Assembly (NCBI GenBank): GCA_030587365.1
Contig: JAUQZE010000027.1
Coordinates: 186,001 to 250,000 of the forward strand
Direction of reading: 5' to 3'
DNA length: 64,000 bases
From: Candidatus Freyarchaeota archaeon
GTDB taxonomy: Archaea; Asgardarchaeota; Jordiarchaeia; Jordiarchaeales; Jordiarchaeaceae
In this document: one piece after another, positions 14,787 to 23,362 of the stretch
How positions within the stretch are numbered: the stretch's first letter is position 1
How the letters are laid out: the number at the start of each line of letters is the position of its first letter
Program-made: the position numbers and the translations under genes
The notes under the pieces: model-generated
Seen by the model: the letters and a program-made list of their open reading frames with translations, nothing else
Told to the model about the DNA's origin: nothing
Database searches by the model: none

Positions 14787-15272
14787 TTGTCCGTTAGTAA
14801 AATGTTAGCCTTGCATAATCTTGTTCCGGGTGGGATGAGAGCAGGTCTCATCCAAGATTCTCTTCTGGATGCCACAGCAGCGCTCTCAGCTGCTATTCTT
14901 AAGACGTACAAAAAAGAAGGCGAAAAACTGATCGCCGAAGTTTACAGACAGCAGGGTAAGAATCAGGGTGAGACACTAAAGAAAAGACTTGGACTGGGAA
15001 GCAGTCTTAAGGATGCCGTGGATGCTTGGAAGATTGCTGGTAACCTAACGAAACTAAAAGCAAAATTTCAAAAGACAGGTGAAAATTCCTATGACGCTTA
15101 CCATCTTAACTGTCCCATGCATGAGGCTTTCAAAAAGTATAAAATTTCATGCGGCACTGCATGTCTTCCCATGGTTGAAGCTCTTGCAACTACTATTTGC
15201 CCCGGAGTGAAAATGACGGTGGTTCGGAAACCCACGCTGGAAGAAACCTGTATTAAGAGGTTGACGCTGTAA
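14787..15272 (+). CDS. L-2-amino-thiazoline-4-carboxylate hydrolase-like protein
   Basis: 161 residues from TTG 14787, which has GAGGTG with 7 nt spacing; the in-frame ATG five codons upstream lacks one. The C-terminal half, HLNCPMHEAFKKYKISCGTA then CLPMVEALATTICPGVKM, resembles the conserved cysteine-containing core of the ATC-hydrolase family (conserved Cys with His/Glu, then an aromatic-acid-binding tail). Most characterised or annotated members are small soluble enzymes or of unknown role. The true substrate is not indicated here. A broken copy of the promoter and first codons lies 2 kb upstream. Confidence 0.55.
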   Translation: MSVSKMLALHNLVPGGMRAGLIQDSLLDATAALSAAILKTYKKEGEKLIAEVYRQQGKNQGETLKKRLGLGSSLKDAVDAWKIAGNLTKLKAKFQKTGENSYDAYHLNCPMHEAFKKYKISCGTACLPMVEALATTICPGVKMTVVRKPTLEETCIKRLTL

Positions 15273-15575: not shown

Positions 15576-15866
15576 GTGACTAACGTGTCGGCGGGAAAGT
15601 ATAAAATAGTGCTTTACATGTCTCAGAGAACTCCCAAATATCACCAGGTTTTAAACAACATTAAAAAAAGTCTGAAAAATTTGAATTTGAATATGGAAAT
15701 TGAAGAAGTGGATTTGCAGAAAAATCCGGAGAGGGCTCTAAGAGATGGGGTTCTAATAACACCAACACTTGACCTCATAGGTCTGAATTGGAGATTTATC
15801 GGGGTTCCCACTGTTGACGAACTTACAGAGGTTCTTGAGGATTTGAAAAAACGGAGGGAGGAATAA
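15576..15866 (+). CDS. KaiB-like thioredoxin-fold protein
   Basis: 96 residues. The order YKIVLYMSQRTPK, a helix, MEIEEVDLQKNPE, then VLITPTLDLIG and a last helix matches KaiB: strand 1, the D-x-x-K-N-P segment and the cis-proline TPTL motif. In cyanobacteria KaiB binds KaiC in a phosphorylation-dependent way. Here it sits 2 nt before a KaiC-like ATPase, which supports the call. The catalytic Cys pair of thioredoxins is absent, as in KaiB. GTG 15576 is used; a second GTG three codons on is possible. First gene of the signalling operon. Confidence 0.75.
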   Translation: MTNVSAGKYKIVLYMSQRTPKYHQVLNNIKKSLKNLNLNMEIEEVDLQKNPERALRDGVLITPTLDLIGLNWRFIGVPTVDELTEVLEDLKKRREE

Positions 15867-15868
15867 TA

Positions 15869-16684
15869 ATGAGTAGAAAAAAGAAACCCAACGGTGATAC
15901 TCTCTTGGATGAACTTCGGAGAAGAGCGAAAGTTTTTGAGAGTGAAGTTGAGGGTGAGACTGTACCGCAGGATTTGAGTGAGAGGACACCCACCGGTATT
16001 AAAGGATTCGACGAATTGATTCAGGGCGGTCTGATAAAGGGGGAAACGTACATAATATCCGGTGTTTCTGGCGCTGGGAAATCAATTTTTTCGTTAGAGT
16101 ACTTATATAGGGGTGCTTCCCAGTATGGTGAGCCTGGCCTTTATGTAACATTTGAGGAGACGATGCAAAGTTTACTCCGGAATGGTAGAAACTTTGGATG
16201 GAATTTGGGCGACCTTTTCAAAAAGAAAAAGCTAATGCTTGTAGATTTCACGTTGGTAACCGTGGGTGATAAAGCTTTATCCTTGAACCCTGAAGCCTTC
16301 AACCTTGATGGTTTATATGTAACACTCGAAACCGCAGTTAGGGAATTGGGGATAAAGAGAGTTGTCCTAGATCCCATTTCTGTCCTATTTTTACAATATC
16401 CTAACACTGGTGTAATTCGCAGGGAATTAAACATTATATCCAGCATGTTACGTAAAAACAACTGCACCTCCATATTTGTTACAGAGACCGGTAATGAACC
16501 AAATCATATTACTCGTTTTGGTGTCGAAGAGTACTTAGCGAACGGGGTTATAGTGTTATATTGGGAATCTGAGAATGATAAGAGGAGTAGATATATTGAA
16601 GTTTTCAAAATGAGGGGCACAGCTCATTACATGGGTAGGAGGCGGCTTTCCATAACTAATGATGGTATAAGCGTAATCTACTAG
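15869..16684 (+). CDS. KaiC-like RecA-superfamily ATPase, single domain
   Basis: 271 residues, one KaiC domain. Walker A is GVSGAGKS (residues 65-72), the catalytic Glu pair is TFEET (~95), Walker B is VVLDPISVLF (~170), and the C-terminal strand-turn RSRYIEVFKMRG matches KaiC-family proteins. The recognition segment RTPTGIKGFDELIQGGLIKG is typical of the KaiC/RadA group. Unlike cyanobacterial KaiC it has only one domain and no clear C-terminal phosphosite tail. GGAGG precedes the ATG. It is sandwiched between a KaiB-like gene (2 nt) and the pseudo-KaiC/GTPase gene (14 nt). Probable role: an ATP-driven switch read by the KaiB-like protein. Confidence 0.85.
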   Translation: MSRKKKPNGDTLLDELRRRAKVFESEVEGETVPQDLSERTPTGIKGFDELIQGGLIKGETYIISGVSGAGKSIFSLEYLYRGASQYGEPGLYVTFEETMQSLLRNGRNFGWNLGDLFKKKKLMLVDFTLVTVGDKALSLNPEAFNLDGLYVTLETAVRELGIKRVVLDPISVLFLQYPNTGVIRRELNIISSMLRKNNCTSIFVTETGNEPNHITRFGVEEYLANGVIVLYWESENDKRSRYIEVFKMRGTAHYMGRRRLSITNDGISVIY

Positions 16685-16698
16685 GAGATCCTACACCC

Positions 16699-17862
16699 AT
16701 GCTAAAAACGAACATTCCGTCCTTCGACAAAAAGGTTGGCGGAATACCGGAGAAGAAAAAAGTTGTGTTTATGGTCGCGCCGGGAATAGATCCTTCAATC
16801 ATTGGACTTCATTTTGCAAAGGTGGGATTAGATAATGGATACCGAATAATGTACATAGTGAATAACAAGTTTCCTGACGCGGTAAGAAAACAAGCAAAAG
16901 CGGTAGGTTGGACAACAGACCACTTTGAGAGAGAAGGCTCCTTCACCCTGGTTGACGCCTACTGCGGATACAGTGGAATAGACAGCAAGGAAAAACTTGT
17001 TACCAATCCTTACGACAATCAAGAAACAAGGGAAAAACTATCTAAACTCTCATCAAAAAAAACCGTAGTAATCTTTGACTCCATAAGCAGCTTTTTAGAT
17101 ATGCACGGGGATGGAGTGGAAGAAATTCTGGATTTAATTAGCTCTTTACACGAGGCTATTGTCATAGGTCTCTTTTCCACTTGGACTTACCGACAAGACG
17201 AGGTTGTAAAGATTATAGACTTCTTCGAAGGTGTCTTCGAAATAAAGCCCAGCAAAGAGTTTTTATACATAAAACAGTCCCTCTCCATAAAAAAGGTAAC
17301 ATGGACTAGAAAGACTGACTTGGAAATTCCCGTAAGGATACTAATTCCTGGAGGACTAAGAGTCTACATACCCAAGATCGTGGTGACCGGACCATACCAC
17401 GCCGGTAAAACAACATTTCTGCATGCCATAGCAGATGAGGCAATAAGTGTGGATCGCATGGGCACCACAGTAGCTCTCGACTATGGAAAATTAGATTATA
17501 GAGGATTCTATATCGAATTCTTTGGAACCCCCGGGCAACCGCAATTCGATCCCGTTGTAGAAACAATAGCCCAAGAAGCGATAGGATTAATCCTACTAGT
17601 TGATAGCACAGATCAAGAAACATTTCCAAGAGCCAAAATTCTTTTTGAGAAGTGTAACGGTTACAATTTACCCTCAATTATAGTCGCTAACAAACAGGAT
17701 CTTAAAGAAGCCTTAGATCCATCGAGTGTTCAAGAGAAACTGGCTCTTCCCTTAAAGATACCCATCATAGGTTGCAGTGCGAAAACCAAAAGTAACTTAA
17801 CTCTGGTGATTGATATTCTTCTCGATATAATATTATTTGGAGGAAGCGGAATTGAAAATTGA
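16699..17862 (+). CDS. Pseudo-KaiC domain fused to an MglA/Ras-like GTPase
   Basis: 387 residues in two parts. Residues 1-210 keep the KaiC layout (FDKKVGGIP, strand VVFMVAPG, Walker-B-like TVVIFDSISSF), but Walker A is lost (APGIDPSI). Residues 222-385 are a small GTPase: P-loop GPYHAGKT (231-238), switch I GTTVALDYG, G3 FGTPGQPQFD, G4 NKQD (331-334) and G5 SAK. The G3 and ALDYG motifs match the MglA-like GTPases that pair with roadblock proteins. The following gene is exactly such a roadblock protein, overlapping by 11 nt. So a nucleotide-dead KaiC module seems to tie the KaiB/KaiC pair to a GTPase switch. The pairing is inferred from gene order. Confidence 0.85.
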   Translation: MLKTNIPSFDKKVGGIPEKKKVVFMVAPGIDPSIIGLHFAKVGLDNGYRIMYIVNNKFPDAVRKQAKAVGWTTDHFEREGSFTLVDAYCGYSGIDSKEKLVTNPYDNQETREKLSKLSSKKTVVIFDSISSFLDMHGDGVEEILDLISSLHEAIVIGLFSTWTYRQDEVVKIIDFFEGVFEIKPSKEFLYIKQSLSIKKVTWTRKTDLEIPVRILIPGGLRVYIPKIVVTGPYHAGKTTFLHAIADEAISVDRMGTTVALDYGKLDYRGFYIEFFGTPGQPQFDPVVETIAQEAIGLILLVDSTDQETFPRAKILFEKCNGYNLPSIIVANKQDLKEALDPSSVQEKLALPLKIPIIGCSAKTKSNLTLVIDILLDIILFGGSGIEN

Positions 17863-18220
17863 TGAGGCAGAAGAGCTGGACAGAGTTTTAACCAATCTAC
17901 AAAACCTTTCTAATATTGAAGGCGCCGCCATAATAACCAGAAATGGTATCCTAATAAAGAGCACCCTACCACAGGATATTGACGGACAAAAATTCGCAGC
18001 TATGTCTGCGAGCATGGTCGGAGCTTCGGAGACAGCAGCCGCGTTAATGAAGTCTTTCGCAAAGAGGATAATAATAGAAATTGAGAGGGGAAAAATACTC
18101 GCTTTAGGTGCAGGACCCAAAGCGATACTTGTTGTTTCAGTTGACGAGAGAACCGATATTGAAAAGCTTACCCAAGAATTAGAGAAACACAGGAAGGATA
18201 TTATGAAAATATTTAAATAA
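17852..18220 (+). CDS. Roadblock/LC7 (MglB-like) GTPase-regulating protein
   Basis: 122 residues. The roadblock fold is clear: LTNLQNLSNIEGAAIITRNG, then a helix MVGASETAAALMKSF, the strand IIIEIERGKILALGAGPK and a last strand AILVVSVDERT. MglB-type proteins act as GTPase-activating dimers for MglA. TTG 17852 is chosen because GGAGG lies 8 nt before it; it overlaps the stop of the GTPase gene, showing translational coupling. A TTG five codons earlier is less likely. With its neighbour it forms a GTPase/GAP pair. Confidence 0.88.
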   Translation: MKIDEAEELDRVLTNLQNLSNIEGAAIITRNGILIKSTLPQDIDGQKFAAMSASMVGASETAAALMKSFAKRIIIEIERGKILALGAGPKAILVVSVDERTDIEKLTQELEKHRKDIMKIFK

Positions 18221-18326
18221 TCACCAAATTGTATTTTACAAAAATCTTACCAATTATTAATTCACCCAAACATTAAAAGAGAAAAAATAAACATATTTAT
18301 TTTAACTAACGGGGCTCAAAGGAAGA

Positions 18327-19079
18327 ATGGAAGGGCTTTCTCAGAAAGAGGGAAGATACTTGTCGGAACCCAAAAAAGAAAAGAGAATCAAAACAGGAAT
18401 TCCAGGCTTGGACGAAATGTTAAACGACGGCCTACGCCTAGGTTCTCTTTGCATAATTATAGGCGAGCCGCTTTGTGGAAAAGAAATTCTCGCAAAGGAA
18501 TTCTTTTACAAGGGCCTTGAAAACGGAGAGGCGGGAATCTATATTACAACAAACAACTTCGCCGAGGATGTATCAAACGAAATGGAAGAGTTTGGATGGT
18601 CTCTATCTGAATATACCAGAGACGAAAATGTTTCATACAAAATTATTGACACCTATTCACAAACCGTCAATCCCAAAGTCGAAGAAACAAACAATATTCT
18701 GTATGTTCCTGCTGCAACCGACCTAGCTGGACTAAGCTCAAAAGTGGTTGAAGCGATAACAACTTTGACTGCGAATTTTAAAAACCTTAGAATGGTTCTC
18801 GATTCCCTCTCAAGCATTATCACTTTTATCACACCCCCTGCGGCAATTAGATTTCTCTCGTTCCTCAAAGCACGAATACGATTGGTTAAAGGAACATTCG
18901 TTTCTATTCTAGAATCCGAACTGACCGAAAAAAGTGTAATGATGCAAATACTTCAATTAGCTGATGTTATAATAGAAATAAAGGATTGTGAAATATATGT
19001 GAGACAGAGAGGCAGAGCCTCAACAATCGGCGAATTCAAAATAACTGAGAAAGGAGCCGAAATTACCCCAAAAAAATAG
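18327..19079 (+). CDS. Second KaiC-like ATPase homologue with altered Walker A
   Basis: 250 residues. The KaiC entry RIKTGIPGLDEMLNDGLRLG is followed by GEPLCGKE (about residues 46-53), a P-loop in which the usual Ser/Thr after Lys is Glu, so nucleotide binding may be weak or altered. The catalytic Glu pair is replaced by TTNNF. Walker B is present as LRMVLDSLSSIITF. The C-terminus (IIEIKDCEIYVRQRGRA) fits the family. It begins 106 nt after the roadblock gene with AAAGGAAG before the ATG, same strand. Probably a regulatory partner of the KaiC-like ATPase rather than a second motor. Confidence 0.8.
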   Translation: MEGLSQKEGRYLSEPKKEKRIKTGIPGLDEMLNDGLRLGSLCIIIGEPLCGKEILAKEFFYKGLENGEAGIYITTNNFAEDVSNEMEEFGWSLSEYTRDENVSYKIIDTYSQTVNPKVEETNNILYVPAATDLAGLSSKVVEAITTLTANFKNLRMVLDSLSSIITFITPPAAIRFLSFLKARIRLVKGTFVSILESELTEKSVMMQILQLADVIIEIKDCEIYVRQRGRASTIGEFKITEKGAEITPKK

Positions 19080-19140
19080 AAAATAAATATAATAAACCAG
19101 ATGAAAAATATTTTTTATAAAAATTTATGGAGGGTGGCTC

Positions 19141-19284
19141 ATGAGCGAATGTCCAAGGTGTAGAGAGAAGTCCATAACTCTTGGGCAAGTTACGGTCCCT
19201 ATCGGAAAAACTCGTGGTAAAAGAGTAAACGTAAATGAATGTGTAGGCTGCAAACTTCTTTTCTACGAGGCGGCGGAAGAGTAG
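19141..19284 (+). CDS. Small zinc-ribbon protein
   Basis: 47 residues with CPRC near the start and CVGC near the end, spaced about 28 residues apart, the pattern of a zinc ribbon. A strong GGAGGGTGG precedes the ATG. Same strand as, and 61 nt after, the second KaiC-like gene. Possibly a nucleic-acid- or protein-binding accessory of the module. Confidence 0.65.
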   Translation: MSECPRCREKSITLGQVTVPIGKTRGKRVNVNECVGCKLLFYEAAEE

Positions 19285-19636: not shown

Positions 19637-19807
19637 CTAAAAGGATAACCTTCAAGATTCAAAAATAAAAACCATAATAATTTTTTAACCATTTTAAAAA
19701 ACACAGCAAATCAAGTAATCATTTTTCCTTTTTTTTGGGAATAATAAAGGTTATAAATGTTTAAATACTTTCTTTTTGACTATAAGCTAACGAATGGAGG
19801 TACTCGG

Positions 19808-20713
19808 TTGTCTAGCGAAAACGAACCTAGCAAGGACGAAGTTGAGTTTAAAGGTGTTCTCGACGAGTATAAAATCGGCAGATATGGCGGACCTTGGCTC
19901 TCTGCCCATCACACAGCGTTCATTATACTCCCCATGCTTCCAGCGTTCGTTGTAACAATACTGATCTTCATGCTGCTATTACTGGTTGTAGACTGGTTCT
20001 TCAGCGTACCCTACCTAAACCTGTCTATCTTATGGCCTTATTTGGGCTACCCGCAAATAACTTTTTCAGGAATTAAAGGAGTTTGGCAAAACAGCTTATG
20101 GGTATGGGCTTTTCTGTTTGTATTCACTCCCCTGTTCTACGTGATCATAAAGTTCGTCTACTTCTTGTTTAGTCTTCCACTCGCTAAACTATTGGTTAAA
20201 CCAGTACCGGATGGCGAATACCCCTTCACACCGAACCACCCGATAGTTAGACAGTGGATACTGAACGCTAAGATAACAGGCACTTACCAGAACTACTATA
20301 AAGAAGCACCCTGGGGCAGCGCCTCATTGTCACGACTGATGTACAAGGCTTTGGGGTGCAAATTAGGAAAGAATGTACTCCCAACAATAATAGTCGACCC
20401 ACCCATGACAGAGATTGGTGATAACACTGTTCTAGGAGCATACGTACTTATAGCCGCTCACGGTATACAAAGAGGCATTCTATTCATAGAAAGAGTCAAG
20501 ATCGGTAGTAACTGCACCATAGGCACAAGATCTCTGATATGGCCCGGTGTTACAATGGAAGACCATGTCGACGTCGGGACTTACAGCGTGATAACACGCG
20601 GCAAAGTATTACCGAGTTACACAGTCTGGATAGGAGTGCCTGCTGTGATGGTTAAAGACCTTAGAGAGAAGAAAAAGAAAGGCTCAAAAACTGATACCGA
20701 AAAAGGTGATTAA
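19808..20713 (+). CDS. Membrane-anchored left-handed beta-helix acyltransferase
   Basis: 301 residues from TTG 19808, preceded by GGAGG with normal spacing. An in-frame ATG at 19757 would add 17 residues but sits on a TATA-like stretch. Two strongly hydrophobic regions (residues ~35-70 and ~85-125) precede a soluble domain. Its last ~110 residues are hexapeptide repeats: IGDNTVLGAYVLIAAHG, VKIGSNCTIGTRSLIWPG, VDVGTYSVITRG, ending in the usual cap SYTVWIGVPAVMV. The His of AAHG is the likely catalytic base. Members transfer acetyl or acyl groups to sugars or lipids; the membrane anchor suggests an envelope or lipid substrate. Confidence 0.8.
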   Translation: MSSENEPSKDEVEFKGVLDEYKIGRYGGPWLSAHHTAFIILPMLPAFVVTILIFMLLLLVVDWFFSVPYLNLSILWPYLGYPQITFSGIKGVWQNSLWVWAFLFVFTPLFYVIIKFVYFLFSLPLAKLLVKPVPDGEYPFTPNHPIVRQWILNAKITGTYQNYYKEAPWGSASLSRLMYKALGCKLGKNVLPTIIVDPPMTEIGDNTVLGAYVLIAAHGIQRGILFIERVKIGSNCTIGTRSLIWPGVTMEDHVDVGTYSVITRGKVLPSYTVWIGVPAVMVKDLREKKKKGSKTDTEKGD

Positions 20714-20832
20714 CATTCTAGTGAAATGGCTGGTAATACGAACTCAATTATACCTTTCGTCTTTCTAAATTTTATTTTTATATTAAATTATTTAATTTTC
20801 TATACTTTTCGTTATTTTTCTTACAGAAAAAT

Positions 20833-20840
20833 CTATATAT
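20833..20840 (+). promoter_or_regulatory. Candidate TATA box before small paralogue 1
   Basis: CTATATAT preceded by GAAAAAT, 80 nt before the next start codon and after a T-rich termination tract near 20770. Supported by composition and position only. Confidence 0.35.
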
Positions 20841-20921
20841 CTAATCGTAGATAGTTAGACTTCAATTCCTTAACCCCACTATCAATGTTCAGTGAACAAT
20901 TGGTAATGAAGAGGGTTATGT

Positions 20922-21137
20922 ATGTCCGAAAATAGGTCGAGTAGAACATTAGCAGACAGTTTTAAATCCGAGGATCTTTATTTGTTCATGGTACAATTAG
21001 AAGATGCTTATTATAGTATGCTACGAGAGAAACTTAATAAGAACGAAGAAGATATTATTTTGCTGCGCAATATCTATAACTCCATTACGGAAATCAAAAG
21101 CATACTGAGAGAAAGAAAGTTTCTTGTTGAATTGTGA
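20922..21137 (+). CDS. Small helical protein, paralogue 1
   Basis: 71 residues, mostly helical and charged: LYLFMVQLEDAYYSMLREKL, then EEDIILLRNIYNSITEIKSI. It aligns along its length with the next gene (EDIILLRNIYNSI against NDLILLNNLCRSM), so the two are tandem duplicates. No family is recognised. GAGGG precedes the ATG. Possibly a helical-hairpin regulator. Confidence 0.6.
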   Translation: MSENRSSRTLADSFKSEDLYLFMVQLEDAYYSMLREKLNKNEEDIILLRNIYNSITEIKSILRERKFLVEL

Positions 21138-21272
21138 TATTCCTCTCAATTGTAATCTTTAATTTTTTGAAGATATTATTGAGGTATTTCTCCAAATATT
21201 ATGCAGGTTTTACACAGTTAAATAATATAGTTCTTTTTATGGTACCTCGTTCATAATCAGTGGGGCGTCTGT

Positions 21273-21461
21273 TTGGCTAGTGAAGCTTCTCTTGACGAGG
21301 ATGACATCCAATCATTTTTGAACCAAGTTCAAGAAACTTACAGAACATTATTAAAGAATAAAGAGCATAAAACAACGAACGATCTGATTCTACTGAATAA
21401 TCTCTGCAGATCAATGATTCGGTTAAAATTTATGCTGGAGAGAAAAAAGAATCAGAGTTGA
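21273..21461 (+). CDS. Small helical protein, paralogue 2
   Basis: 62 residues from TTG 21273, with GGGG about 7 nt upstream. FLNQVQETYRTLLKNKEHK and NDLILLNNLCRSMIRLKFML repeat the pattern of the gene 135 nt upstream, with low identity but the same spacing. Each has its own AT-rich promoter-like region, so they are probably expressed separately. Function unknown. Confidence 0.6.
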   Translation: MASEASLDEDDIQSFLNQVQETYRTLLKNKEHKTTNDLILLNNLCRSMIRLKFMLERKKNQS

Positions 21462-21844
21462 TTTTTCTCCTTAGCTCCATAGGACGGGATAATCTTAAGG
21501 CGAAGCGAGACATTTCAAATAAGTACATATCGGTTAGTTCCCTAATTAGAAAAAGCTGGCCAACATATTTCAAAGCTTAACTTTTAACGGCTTTTATGTA
21601 ATTCTGCTTGGCGGCACTAGATTAGATAACATTTTTTAGGAACCCCTCATTATGGTAGATTTGGAGGGTGAAGGTTCCAAACATATTTGATATCTAAGAG
21701 AACAGTTCGATTAATCTAATCATACTACGAATCTCTTCATAAAGAAGCATGTTTTGAATTACCCTCCAAATACTCATAGCAGTTAGCAGTTTTAGGAGGT
21801 TTAAGAGACCTCTTAGGCGGTCTCACAATAGCGGATAGGAGAGG
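21462..21844. other. Non-coding stretch with a small palindrome
   Basis: No gene is supported. GAGACC (21805-21810) and GGTCTC (21819-21824) form a 6-bp inverted repeat with an 8-nt loop just before the DUF362 remnant. Confidence 0.4.
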
Positions 21845-21963
21845 ATGATTAATATGGCGAAACAGAGTGAAGTTTTCTTGATAAAAACGTCGGATAGGAA
21901 CGCTGGAATAAGGAGCCTGCTTGAACAATTCGACCTTAATAACTATGAACGAAAAAGAGTGGG
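21845..21963 (+). pseudogene. N-terminal remnant of a DUF362 protein
   Basis: The frame from ATG 21854 reads MAKQSEVFLIKTSDRNAGIR, then SLLEQFDLNNYERKRV, the standard N-terminus of DUF362 (iron-sulfur-associated) proteins, which continue with VAIKANYNSAD. Instead the match ends at KRV, where a GGTATGGGGTTAAGTAGACA sequence begins. The frame then runs about 35 codons into unrelated sequence. The gene was cut by a mobile-element end; the remaining ~250 residues are not found downstream. Confidence 0.7.
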
Positions 21964-21983
21964 TATGGGGTTAAGTAGACATA
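21962..21983 (+). mobile_element. IS607-like left end, solo
   Basis: Shares GGTAT-GGGTTAAGTAGACATA with the end at 12813 and the core TTAAGTRGACATAAG with the sequence upstream of the IS607 recombinase remnant. It marks the break in the DUF362 gene. The tnpB gene that follows points the other way, so this end belonged to a different or rearranged element. Confidence 0.5.
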
Positions 21984-22074
21984 AGTCCACAATCCTCTTC
22001 GATTCATCGCTTACCTTTTCGAAGCTTGTCGCCTTCAGCGGGTACCCACTCGCCACATATATATAACGCGCATC

Positions 22075-23362
22075 TTAAGGACTGGTTCCAAAAATCCTGT
22101 CCAAGGTCTCCTTAAGGTTGATTTTTTGATCAACCGTAATTTTGGTAACCTTAGGATAGGGCGTGGGCGTGACCACTTGGCTAACCCAGTTCAGCCACTC
22201 TGGACCAGGCTTAAGGGCTAAGTTTATCGCTGCAACTATGTGTTTGTCGCCACTGTACCCGCAGTACGGGCACTTGAACACCCGTCCGCTGGGTTTCTCT
22301 ATTCTCATTCCGCACACGGGACAGGTCGAGGAAGTGTATCCCTCGCTTTGGTATAGGGTCAAGCAGCCATTCCGGCACCTTAAAGGGGTTCCGGAGCAGC
22401 TTGAACTCGCACAGACGCTGGAGCCTTTCAAAGGACCAAAGGCGTAGCTGTTGTTTGAGCTTCCTTGATCTCGGCAGCTTTTTTATACTGTTTCGGATTC
22501 CAGTTAGGTTTCCGAAAACAGCGCAGAGTCCGCCGTACCTCTCGGAGATACCGGCGACCAAGCTGCTTACGATTTGCAGCGGGTAGTTTATCAGCCGCTT
22601 CTCGCGTGTGAGGTACTTCTCAAGGAGCTCTTCTCGGGCTTTCTGATTATGGATTTTTCTGATTCGCTCTACCTTCTCAATGTACTTGTCTCTGATCTTC
22701 TGTATCAGGGAGATGTCCAATTTGAAACCTCTGTAAACCCCGCTCTTTGTTGCGATGATGAAATCCAGAGTGTTCAGATTGGTATCGAAGTACATTACGC
22801 CAACGGGATCTTCGCTACAGGTTACTTCACGCTTGAACGGCACGTAGACCTCGGACGGCTTAATGGTGATTTCACCCACCTTAAGCTTTTCCGCAGCCCA
22901 AGCCTCAATCAGAGGCTCGGCGTAAGGATATGACCGAAGCGCCAGCTTAATGGGCTCTTTTCTGGGCTCCGTGGTTACGTGGAGTTCCAAACTCCCGTCA
23001 ACCAATTCGAGGTGTGCCAGCACCGGCTGAAGCCTCATGCAGAGCTTTTTCTGCGTAGGCCAACCAGGTTCCTTAGACAAAAGTCCAAGTTCTTTCCAAG
23101 CTTTAACTAGTCCAAAGTGCGATCTAAACAGGCCCGCAGCGTACCGTGAAGCACTAGTAGTGTAATGGGTCATTAGACCGTATTTATCCCTAAAAGGTTT
23201 CCAGAAATGCTTCTCCGATTTTGGAGCAGAGTAAACCTTGTTTTTCTGTCCGTACTCCAGCATCTTGTTCACCATGTCCCTAAAAACTTTAAGAGTTTCC
23301 AACAAACGTGTATTATTACTTTCAATATCAAATCTCATAGTTCTAATTAGACTCGCTTTCAT
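22075..23362 (-). pseudogene. tnpB: tnpB (RuvC-like RNA-guided nuclease of IS605/IS607 elements), frameshifted and catalytically dead
   Basis: About 425 codons in two frames that join between 22331 and 22365. The N-terminal frame holds the helix-turn-helix start (IRTMRFDIESNNTRLLETLK) and RuvC-I (MYFDTNLNTLDF). The second holds the zinc finger STCPVCGM ... CPYCGYSGDKHIVAAINLA. Beyond the frameshift, two of three RuvC residues are changed: the Glu of the usual LEDLKGI motif is Gly (VFGNLTGI), and the last Asp (DRD-AA) is His (DKHIVAA). It is therefore inactive by several independent changes. A clean left end is not seen on the 23.4-kb side. Confidence 0.85.

Follow-up and report, generated by a model that had tools for sequence, protein, structure and literature searches.

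The window analysed here is a 64,000-nucleotide stretch of contig JAUQZE010000027.1 (positions 186,001 to 250,000) from a Candidatus Freyarchaeota archaeon, and it carries a compact block of five genes encoding a small KaiB-like protein, a single-domain KaiC (KaiC1), a KaiC-like domain fused to an MglA-type GTPase, a roadblock protein, and a second KaiC-like protein (KaiC2). The block is conserved in two families of one Jordarchaeia order, and we judge it an evenly balanced proposition that these genes form a signalling module, with a small GTPase under the control of a KaiC ATPase ring. The host genome (G000) is a 4.2 Mb Asgard genome estimated to be 87.7% complete with 7.4% contamination, and the window lies on its contig C50. 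Near relatives whose fusion protein is 83% identical to the window copy (L001, L002) carry the name 'Candidatus Jordarchaeia'. All of the genes listed in the initial annotation of the window, which was made from the sequence alone, were recovered at the positions given, as determined from open reading frame (ORF) coordinates and Pfam matches:

15576-15866, + strand: KaiB-like thioredoxin-fold protein, 96 amino acids (aa), GTG start, no cysteine; Pfam KaiB PF07689 29.7 bits, Thioredoxin_3 24.9 bits
15869-16684, + strand: kaiC (KaiC1), single-domain, 271 aa; Walker A GVSGAGKS, catalytic EE; PF06745 229.1 bits
16699-17862, + strand: fusion of a KaiC-like domain without Walker A (aa 1-223; Pfam match aa 3-223; KaiC 65.3 bits) and an MglA-type GTPase (aa 226-375; Arf 52.1 bits, Ras 44.3 bits)
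17837-18220, + strand: roadblock/LC7 protein (MglB-like), 127 aa; Robl_LC7 PF03259 52.8 bits
18327-19079, + strand: second KaiC-like protein (KaiC2); PF06745 98.1 bits, altered Walker A GEPLCGKE
19141-19284: zinc-ribbon-type ORF, outside the conserved block

The kaiB-like and kaiC genes are separated by 2 bases, and the fusion and roadblock genes overlap by 26 bases if the TTG start of the latter is correct. A gap of 106 bases precedes kaiC2, which may therefore have its own promoter. Both genes downstream of the roadblock had been noted as following the operon; KaiC2 belongs to the block, but the zinc-ribbon ORF is not part of it, as it was found in one genome of the same genus and neither in the 587 available bases of another nor in the other family.

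Eight genomes of the order were searched, and a full-length fusion gene was found in seven of them, representing two families (the eighth genome is 70% complete). The order and strand kaiB-kaiC-fusion-roadblock-kaiC2 are identical in all seven, counting genome G005, in which the contig ends inside kaiC2. The order described in the initial annotation, far from being unique to the window genome, recurs in six further genomes and across both families. The fusion proteins share 83-100% identity in the four genomes of one genus and 47-49% identity with those of the three genomes of the other family. Between families, identity is 53-60% for the KaiB-like protein, 62-65% for KaiC1, 47-49% for the fusion, 32-39% for the roadblock protein and 41-43% for KaiC2; orthologues in all six other genomes were available for the KaiB-like protein (53-82% identity to the window copy), for KaiC1 (62-84%) and for the roadblock protein. 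Eight window genes flanking the block were looked for in the corresponding stretches of the other family (L039-L041), and none turned up there. Since G000 has 28 KaiC, 28 Ras-type and 16 roadblock matches, closeness of such genes proves little by itself, and the argument is one of conservation: gene order has been kept at 32-65% identity while the flanking genes differ between families, so that a chance neighbourhood can be ruled out.

Ratios of nonsynonymous to synonymous substitution rates (dN/dS) between the window and G001 were 0.08 for the kaiB-like gene, 0.12 for kaiC1, 0.08 for the fusion, 0.15 for the roadblock gene and 0.18 for kaiC2, values that are rough because dS is 0.66-1.26 and thus near saturation. 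Within the fusion the ratio was 0.065 for the N-terminal domain and 0.096 for the GTPase, so that constraint on the dead KaiC domain is about as strong as on the GTPase domain. The kaiC2 ratios for the window-L037 and L037-L038 pairs were left out, as the range used took in a stop and the codon pairing was shifted (window-L037). Apparent in-frame stops in two of the fusion orthologues were merely the terminal stops.

KaiC1 retains an intact Walker A motif (G-V/I-SGAGKS) and the catalytic EE pair in all seven Jordarchaeia and is likely an ATPase. No GK[ST] motif is present in the fusion N-terminal domains (26 of 26 sequences checked), and the position that aligns with EE is NN in Jordarchaeia. 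KaiC2 has GEPL[CG]GKE in 6/6 sequences, and visual inspection showed no EE at the position that aligns with it. These motif states indicate one likely ATPase and two degenerate KaiC domains, in agreement with the earlier description of a one-domain KaiC ATPase beside a pseudo-KaiC. Inactivated KaiC domains ('iKaiC') are a known archaeal theme, according to the available portion of PMC5847659. In a tree of 88 KaiC domains, which contains some long branches, all 17 of the fusion N-terminal domains included lie on one side of a branch with support of 100/99, suggesting a single origin of the fusion.

In two trees KaiC1 grouped with the CI and not the CII domains of canonical KaiBC loci (support 91/84 and 93/82). 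A motif following the B-loop region, [FY]xLx[GA]L, was present in 50 of 51 ATPase-type KaiC proteins encoded next to a KaiB or KaiB-like/thioredoxin gene, the exception being the CII-like half of a split KaiC, and in 0/28 ATPase-type KaiC proteins without such a neighbour. When degenerate KaiC proteins were included, it was found in 2/61 without the neighbour, both of which fail the Walker A/EE filter. As the motif was picked after the alignment had been inspected, and as the rows are related and the positives come from about three lineages (Jordarchaeia, the Asgard family f4, and canonical KaiBC loci), the association is suggestive only. The loop in this region is presumably the one that binds KaiB.

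The GTPase half of the fusion has the G1 P-loop, a [VI][DE]R motif ahead of switch I, and GTPGQ in G3 in 26/26 sequences, with TT in switch I in 25 of them (GT in L193) and a strict NKxD in 23. In the accessible part of PMC4316618, MglA Groups 2-5 are marked by GTPGQ and by a threonine where Group 1 has an arginine, so the label 'MglA-type' fits. The Jordarchaeia proteins resemble MglA/MglB and MglA Groups 2-5, including the actinobacterial conservons, in having GTPGQ, a threonine at the presumed position of the Group 1 arginine, and a roadblock neighbour, but they differ in that a KaiC-fold protein carries the GTPase as its C-terminal half. All 26 full-length matches are fused to a KaiC-like domain, as opposed to the single-domain GTPases of MglA Groups 2-5. 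The same part of that source treats single-domain GTPases, mentions no conserved proteins near the Group 4 genes, which occur almost only in methanogens, and describes stimulation of GTP hydrolysis by the roadblock dimer in MglA/MglB (PMC4316618). The roadblock gene directly adjoins the fusion gene in 25/26 genomes, and in the remaining one only 454 bases of contig follow the fusion, bearing out the pairing of an MglA-type GTPase with an adjacent roadblock that had been noted for the window. An Asn-Gly pair is found in the roadblock protein of 7/7 Jordarchaeia, and Asp-Gly or Glu-Gly in the other fusion-linked roadblock proteins; this site may correspond to the conserved Asp-Gly pair of MglB in MglA Groups 2-5.

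A reading based on 59 genomes, in which the fusion appeared unique to Jordarchaeia, was overturned by a search of 392 archaeal genomes at a threshold of 1e-30. Matches to the fusion were found in 27 genomes, 26 of them full length (7 Jordarchaeia and 19 others) and one to the GTPase only. The 19 non-Asgard genomes belong to 8 families, and their fusion proteins are 31-38% identical to that of the window. In 18 of them a roadblock gene is no more than 100 bases away from the fusion, the nineteenth being L186, where the contig breaks off as described above, and 16/19 have one or two degenerate KaiC genes at a distance of up to 2.5 kb. The core is therefore more widespread than the initial annotation supposed. 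From these gene neighbourhoods, fusion, roadblock and KaiC2 look like an old archaeal core, and the linked KaiC1/KaiB-like pair looks like a feature of Jordarchaeia. At 1e-6, PF07689 matched 14/392 archaeal genomes and none of the Jordarchaeia. Strong canonical KaiB was found at ten places in 9/392 genomes, each beside a two-domain or split KaiC; the fusion occurs in five of these nine genomes, from two families only, either far off on the contig that carries kaiB or on a different one. Some Asgard genomes have canonical kaiB adjacent to a gene for a two-domain KaiC (L170 and L184, two copies in G113 of family f27; L171, L177 and L178 of family f3). Near the fusion operon of two family f40 loci (L187, 4288-4857; L189, 7477-8046) is a gene for a PLD-like protein with an N-terminal hydrophobic stretch, which matched PLD-like PF13091 at 98.9 bits in L187, the copy tested.

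A profile of the KaiB-like protein matched 13 of 227 Asgard genomes, the 7 Jordarchaeia at 1e-48 or better and six others weakly (1e-5 to 7e-7). Four of the weak matches, all in family f13, were rejected as CxxC thioredoxins with no KaiC within the fetched 1.5 kb on either side. The other two are from family f4, where the gene lies in a cluster encoding WD40, Ras-type GTPase and roadblock proteins followed by a thioredoxin, KaiC, KaiC2 and a long TPR-like protein. Family f4 probably corresponds to Thorarchaeota, as judged from a single named contig (L003): its GTPase shares 73-83% identity with the f4 copies and no more than 46% with the copies of other families that were compared (22 loci). 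The f4 roadblock gene was found in 41 of 47 f4 genomes. Among 30 roadblock-centred loci, counted by eye and drawn from 42 roadblock matches, 29 have the thioredoxin, 29 have KaiC (the contig ends in the other), 27 have the GTPase and 25 have KaiC2, the remaining five being cut by contig or locus ends. In 30 KaiC2-centred loci, a set that shares genomes with the first, KaiC was counted in 30, the thioredoxin in 27, the roadblock in 26 and the TPR-like protein in 30. This cluster unites the same kinds of parts as the Jordarchaeia block, but its thioredoxin has CxxC in 37/37 sequences and its Ras-type GTPase is a separate, unfused protein (Pfam Ras 176.5 bits in L055). In family f10 a Ras-type GTPase gene stands beside those of a KaiC and two degenerate KaiC proteins in one genome, and the set occurs without the GTPase in another.

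Further genes were observed in two of these families. The f10 loci (L154, 4867-9661, in G023; L155, 7152-11356, in G015) encode, in this order, a receiver-domain-like protein (by eye), a GvpD-like KaiC protein (tested in L154), the Ras-type GTPase (in L154 only) and a KaiC, followed by the two degenerate KaiC genes in divergent orientation. In an f13 locus (L159, 4045-7443, in G028), two KaiC genes flank the gene for a Ras-type GTPase and another whose 401-aa product matched no Pfam family.

In the mechanism that we propose, KaiC1 would form a CI-like hexamer, and the KaiB-like protein would read the ATP/ADP state of this ring on its CI-type face. KaiC2 and the dead KaiC half of the fusion may dock on the KaiC1 ring or on each other, and this docking would move the MglA-type GTPase towards the roadblock dimer or away from it; the dimer could stimulate hydrolysis or exchange by the fused GTPase; the GTP-bound fusion would then act on a target. 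The KaiC1/KaiB-like pair would be an input added to the ancient core in Jordarchaeia. A switch that responds to nucleotide or energy state seems to us more likely than a clock that sustains itself. The block resembles KaiBC timing systems in having an ATPase-type KaiC beside a small protein of the thioredoxin superfamily, and in that KaiC1 groups with CI, the KaiB-binding half. It differs in that the Jordarchaeia KaiC is one-domain, that its partner does not align with KaiB at the C-terminal end and scores in the thioredoxin range, and that a GTPase is coupled to the pair. With a single domain of 271 aa, KaiC1 has no counterpart of CII, the kinase half of a clock KaiC. In KaiBC systems, KaiB and KaiC assemble into a complex when ADP produced by the hexamer's own ATPase activity occupies the C1 domain (PMC8929707). 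A wider claim would be that there is an ancient archaeal class of KaiC-gated GTPase switches, in which a dead KaiC subunit fused to an MglA-type GTPase becomes part of a KaiC ring or docks on it, and ATP turnover by the ring, read by a KaiB-like protein, times the GTPase on-state, with Jordarchaeia having the complete, KaiB-equipped form; this we consider unlikely.

Counting in favour of the proposed mechanism are the fixed gene order in two families, the branch that unites the fusion N-terminal domains, the roadblock and degenerate KaiC neighbours in non-Asgard genomes, the CI grouping of KaiC1, the Thorarchaeota-type cluster, the [FY]xLx[GA]L motif, the intact GTPase motifs, and the presence of the fusion in five of the nine genomes with strong canonical KaiB. 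Several results weigh against the proposed control of the GTPase by a KaiB-read KaiC ring. The identity of the small protein as a KaiB is not established, since its PF07689 score of 29.7 bits (Pfam cut-off 27 bits) stands against 31.6 bits for a plain CxxC thioredoxin; the f4 thioredoxin scores 27.4 bits and canonical archaeal KaiB proteins 51.5-102.7 bits. A survey reports KaiB only where full-length KaiC exists, in the portion of it that was available (PMC5520375). An ATPase-type KaiC gene lies within 2.5 kb of the fusion in only one of the 19 non-Asgard genomes, and a KaiB-like or thioredoxin gene in none, so the core can do without the KaiC1/KaiB-like pair, or at least without linkage to it. 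The alternative grouping of KaiC1 with the Thorarchaeota-type KaiC was not rejected (p-value of 0.137 in the approximately unbiased test, p-AU). The AlphaFold2 model of the fusion is poor, with a mean predicted local distance difference test score (pLDDT) of 66 and values below 50 for residues 245-279, which include switch I; a structural search with this weak model ranked KaiC and PH0284 folds first.

The small protein was compared with KaiB and thioredoxins in other ways as well. On the NCBIfam KaiB equivalog it scores 18.7 bits versus 145.3, and profile-profile probabilities were 96.1% with canonical KaiB, 96.3% with the Thorarchaeota-type thioredoxin and 93.9% with the f13 thioredoxin, the alignment stopping at residue 78 with KaiB and running to residues 87-88 with the thioredoxins. 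Among five AlphaFold2 models, the one ranked best (pLDDT 81) shows the order b-a-b-a-b-b-a, which is the thioredoxin order and also the fold that KaiB adopts when bound to KaiC; the ground-state fold of KaiB was not seen in it. Thioredoxins were the best structural matches, and KaiC-bound KaiB (8fwj, template modelling (TM) score 0.59) and a fold-switch-stabilised KaiB (5jyt, 0.57) were matched too. Cysteine is absent from the protein in 7/7 Jordarchaeia, and it is thus not a redox thioredoxin. This absence, the modelled fold, the CI grouping of KaiC1 and the [FY]xLx[GA]L motif favour a KaiB-like role. As to the KaiB label of the initial annotation, the family score cannot separate the protein from thioredoxin. 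Judged on its sequence, it is better named 'KaiB-like, thioredoxin fold' than presented as a demonstrable KaiB.

A true timer along the lines of the initial annotation, with slow oscillation of KaiC1 and the KaiB-like protein and a GTPase that follows their cycle to give a timed or polar output, would suit both the CI type of KaiC1 and a thioredoxin fold that counts KaiC-bound KaiB among its structural matches. We nevertheless regard it as very unlikely, given a 271-aa, one-domain KaiC1 that lacks the CII half and a small protein modelled, in the best of five predictions, only in the thioredoxin order. We know of no rhythm data for Jordarchaeia, no specific search for them having been made. 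The block could instead comprise two modules that share transcription, a KaiC/KaiB-like pair and a fusion-roadblock-KaiC2 switch that does not read KaiC1. The 19 other genomes that hold the core with no KaiB-like gene linked to it, and the Thorarchaeota-type genomes that hold a KaiC/thioredoxin pair without the fusion, are what such independence would predict; the pair nonetheless lies directly upstream of the fusion in 7/7 Jordarchaeia, and the Thorarchaeota-type pair is itself linked to roadblock and GTPase genes (GTPase in 27/30 loci), which makes this separation improbable in our view.

We are also doubtful of a role for the module in regulating type IV pili or another surface structure, with the KaiC/GTPase state setting pilus assembly or placement. 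The option arises because KaiC and roadblock genes occur in archaeal pilus loci, as reported in the accessible part of PMC4858521, and pilin-like ORFs were recognised by eye beside the fusion operon in several non-Asgard loci. None of the five such ORFs tested passed a pilin model, however (one gave a Class_IIIsignal score of 14.2 bits, cut-off 23.7), tests of 8 ORFs flanking the L039 block and of flanking ORFs in the window yielded no pilus family, and the two secretion-ATPase matches in G000 are both on other contigs.

In 2017 Makarova reportedly described archaeal KaiC proteins as 'signal transduction hubs', a work cited in PMC5847659. The likeness of the block to these lies in an ATPase-type KaiC and inactivated KaiC domains together with partners, and the block is a variant of these predicted archaeal KaiC 'hub' systems. 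A KaiC accompanied by a thioredoxin-family KaiB-like protein has been noted in archaea (PMC4858521, in the part cited above). A KaiC-GTPase fusion with a roadblock was not found in the literature searched, which was available in part; the 2017 work by Makarova, which lay outside that search, may describe it, and the fusion family is not claimed here to be unpublished. Archaea have an expanded set of KaiC ATPases, few of them with a known output, and small GTPases with roadblock regulators hold a central place in Asgard biology and in thinking about how eukaryotes arose. One polypeptide joining KaiC and a GTPase is a testable candidate for the signal output of a KaiC ring, and the non-Asgard versions may be easier to work with. 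The CxxC thioredoxin paired with KaiC in Thorarchaeota-type genomes bears on how KaiB could arise from a thioredoxin.

Several further genes were noted in and around these loci. On contig C20 of G000, four roadblock genes and a Ras-type GTPase gene lie within 2.7 kb (19665-22300), and on contig C22 three tandem genes for GTPase-domain proteins of 312-318 aa are located between two KaiC genes (L168, 9011-19181). In the other family, separate Ras-type GTPase genes (182.8 and 197.2 bits) follow within 3 kb downstream of the block in G004 (L039, 4857-5372 and 6165-6695). The window ORF upstream of the block (14790-15272), which is kept in that place in two genomes of the same genus, matched L-2-amino-thiazoline-4-carboxylic acid hydrolase at 26.6 bits, with a cut-off of 28.1. 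On the - strand of the window, two overlapping ORFs in different frames (22075-23362) resemble one TnpB/Cas12f-type transposon protein; the smaller (22075-22431) matched the Cas12f1-like TNB domain at 47.6 bits, and the larger had no Pfam match. Another TnpB-type gene is found in the other-family locus L039 (12167-13237).

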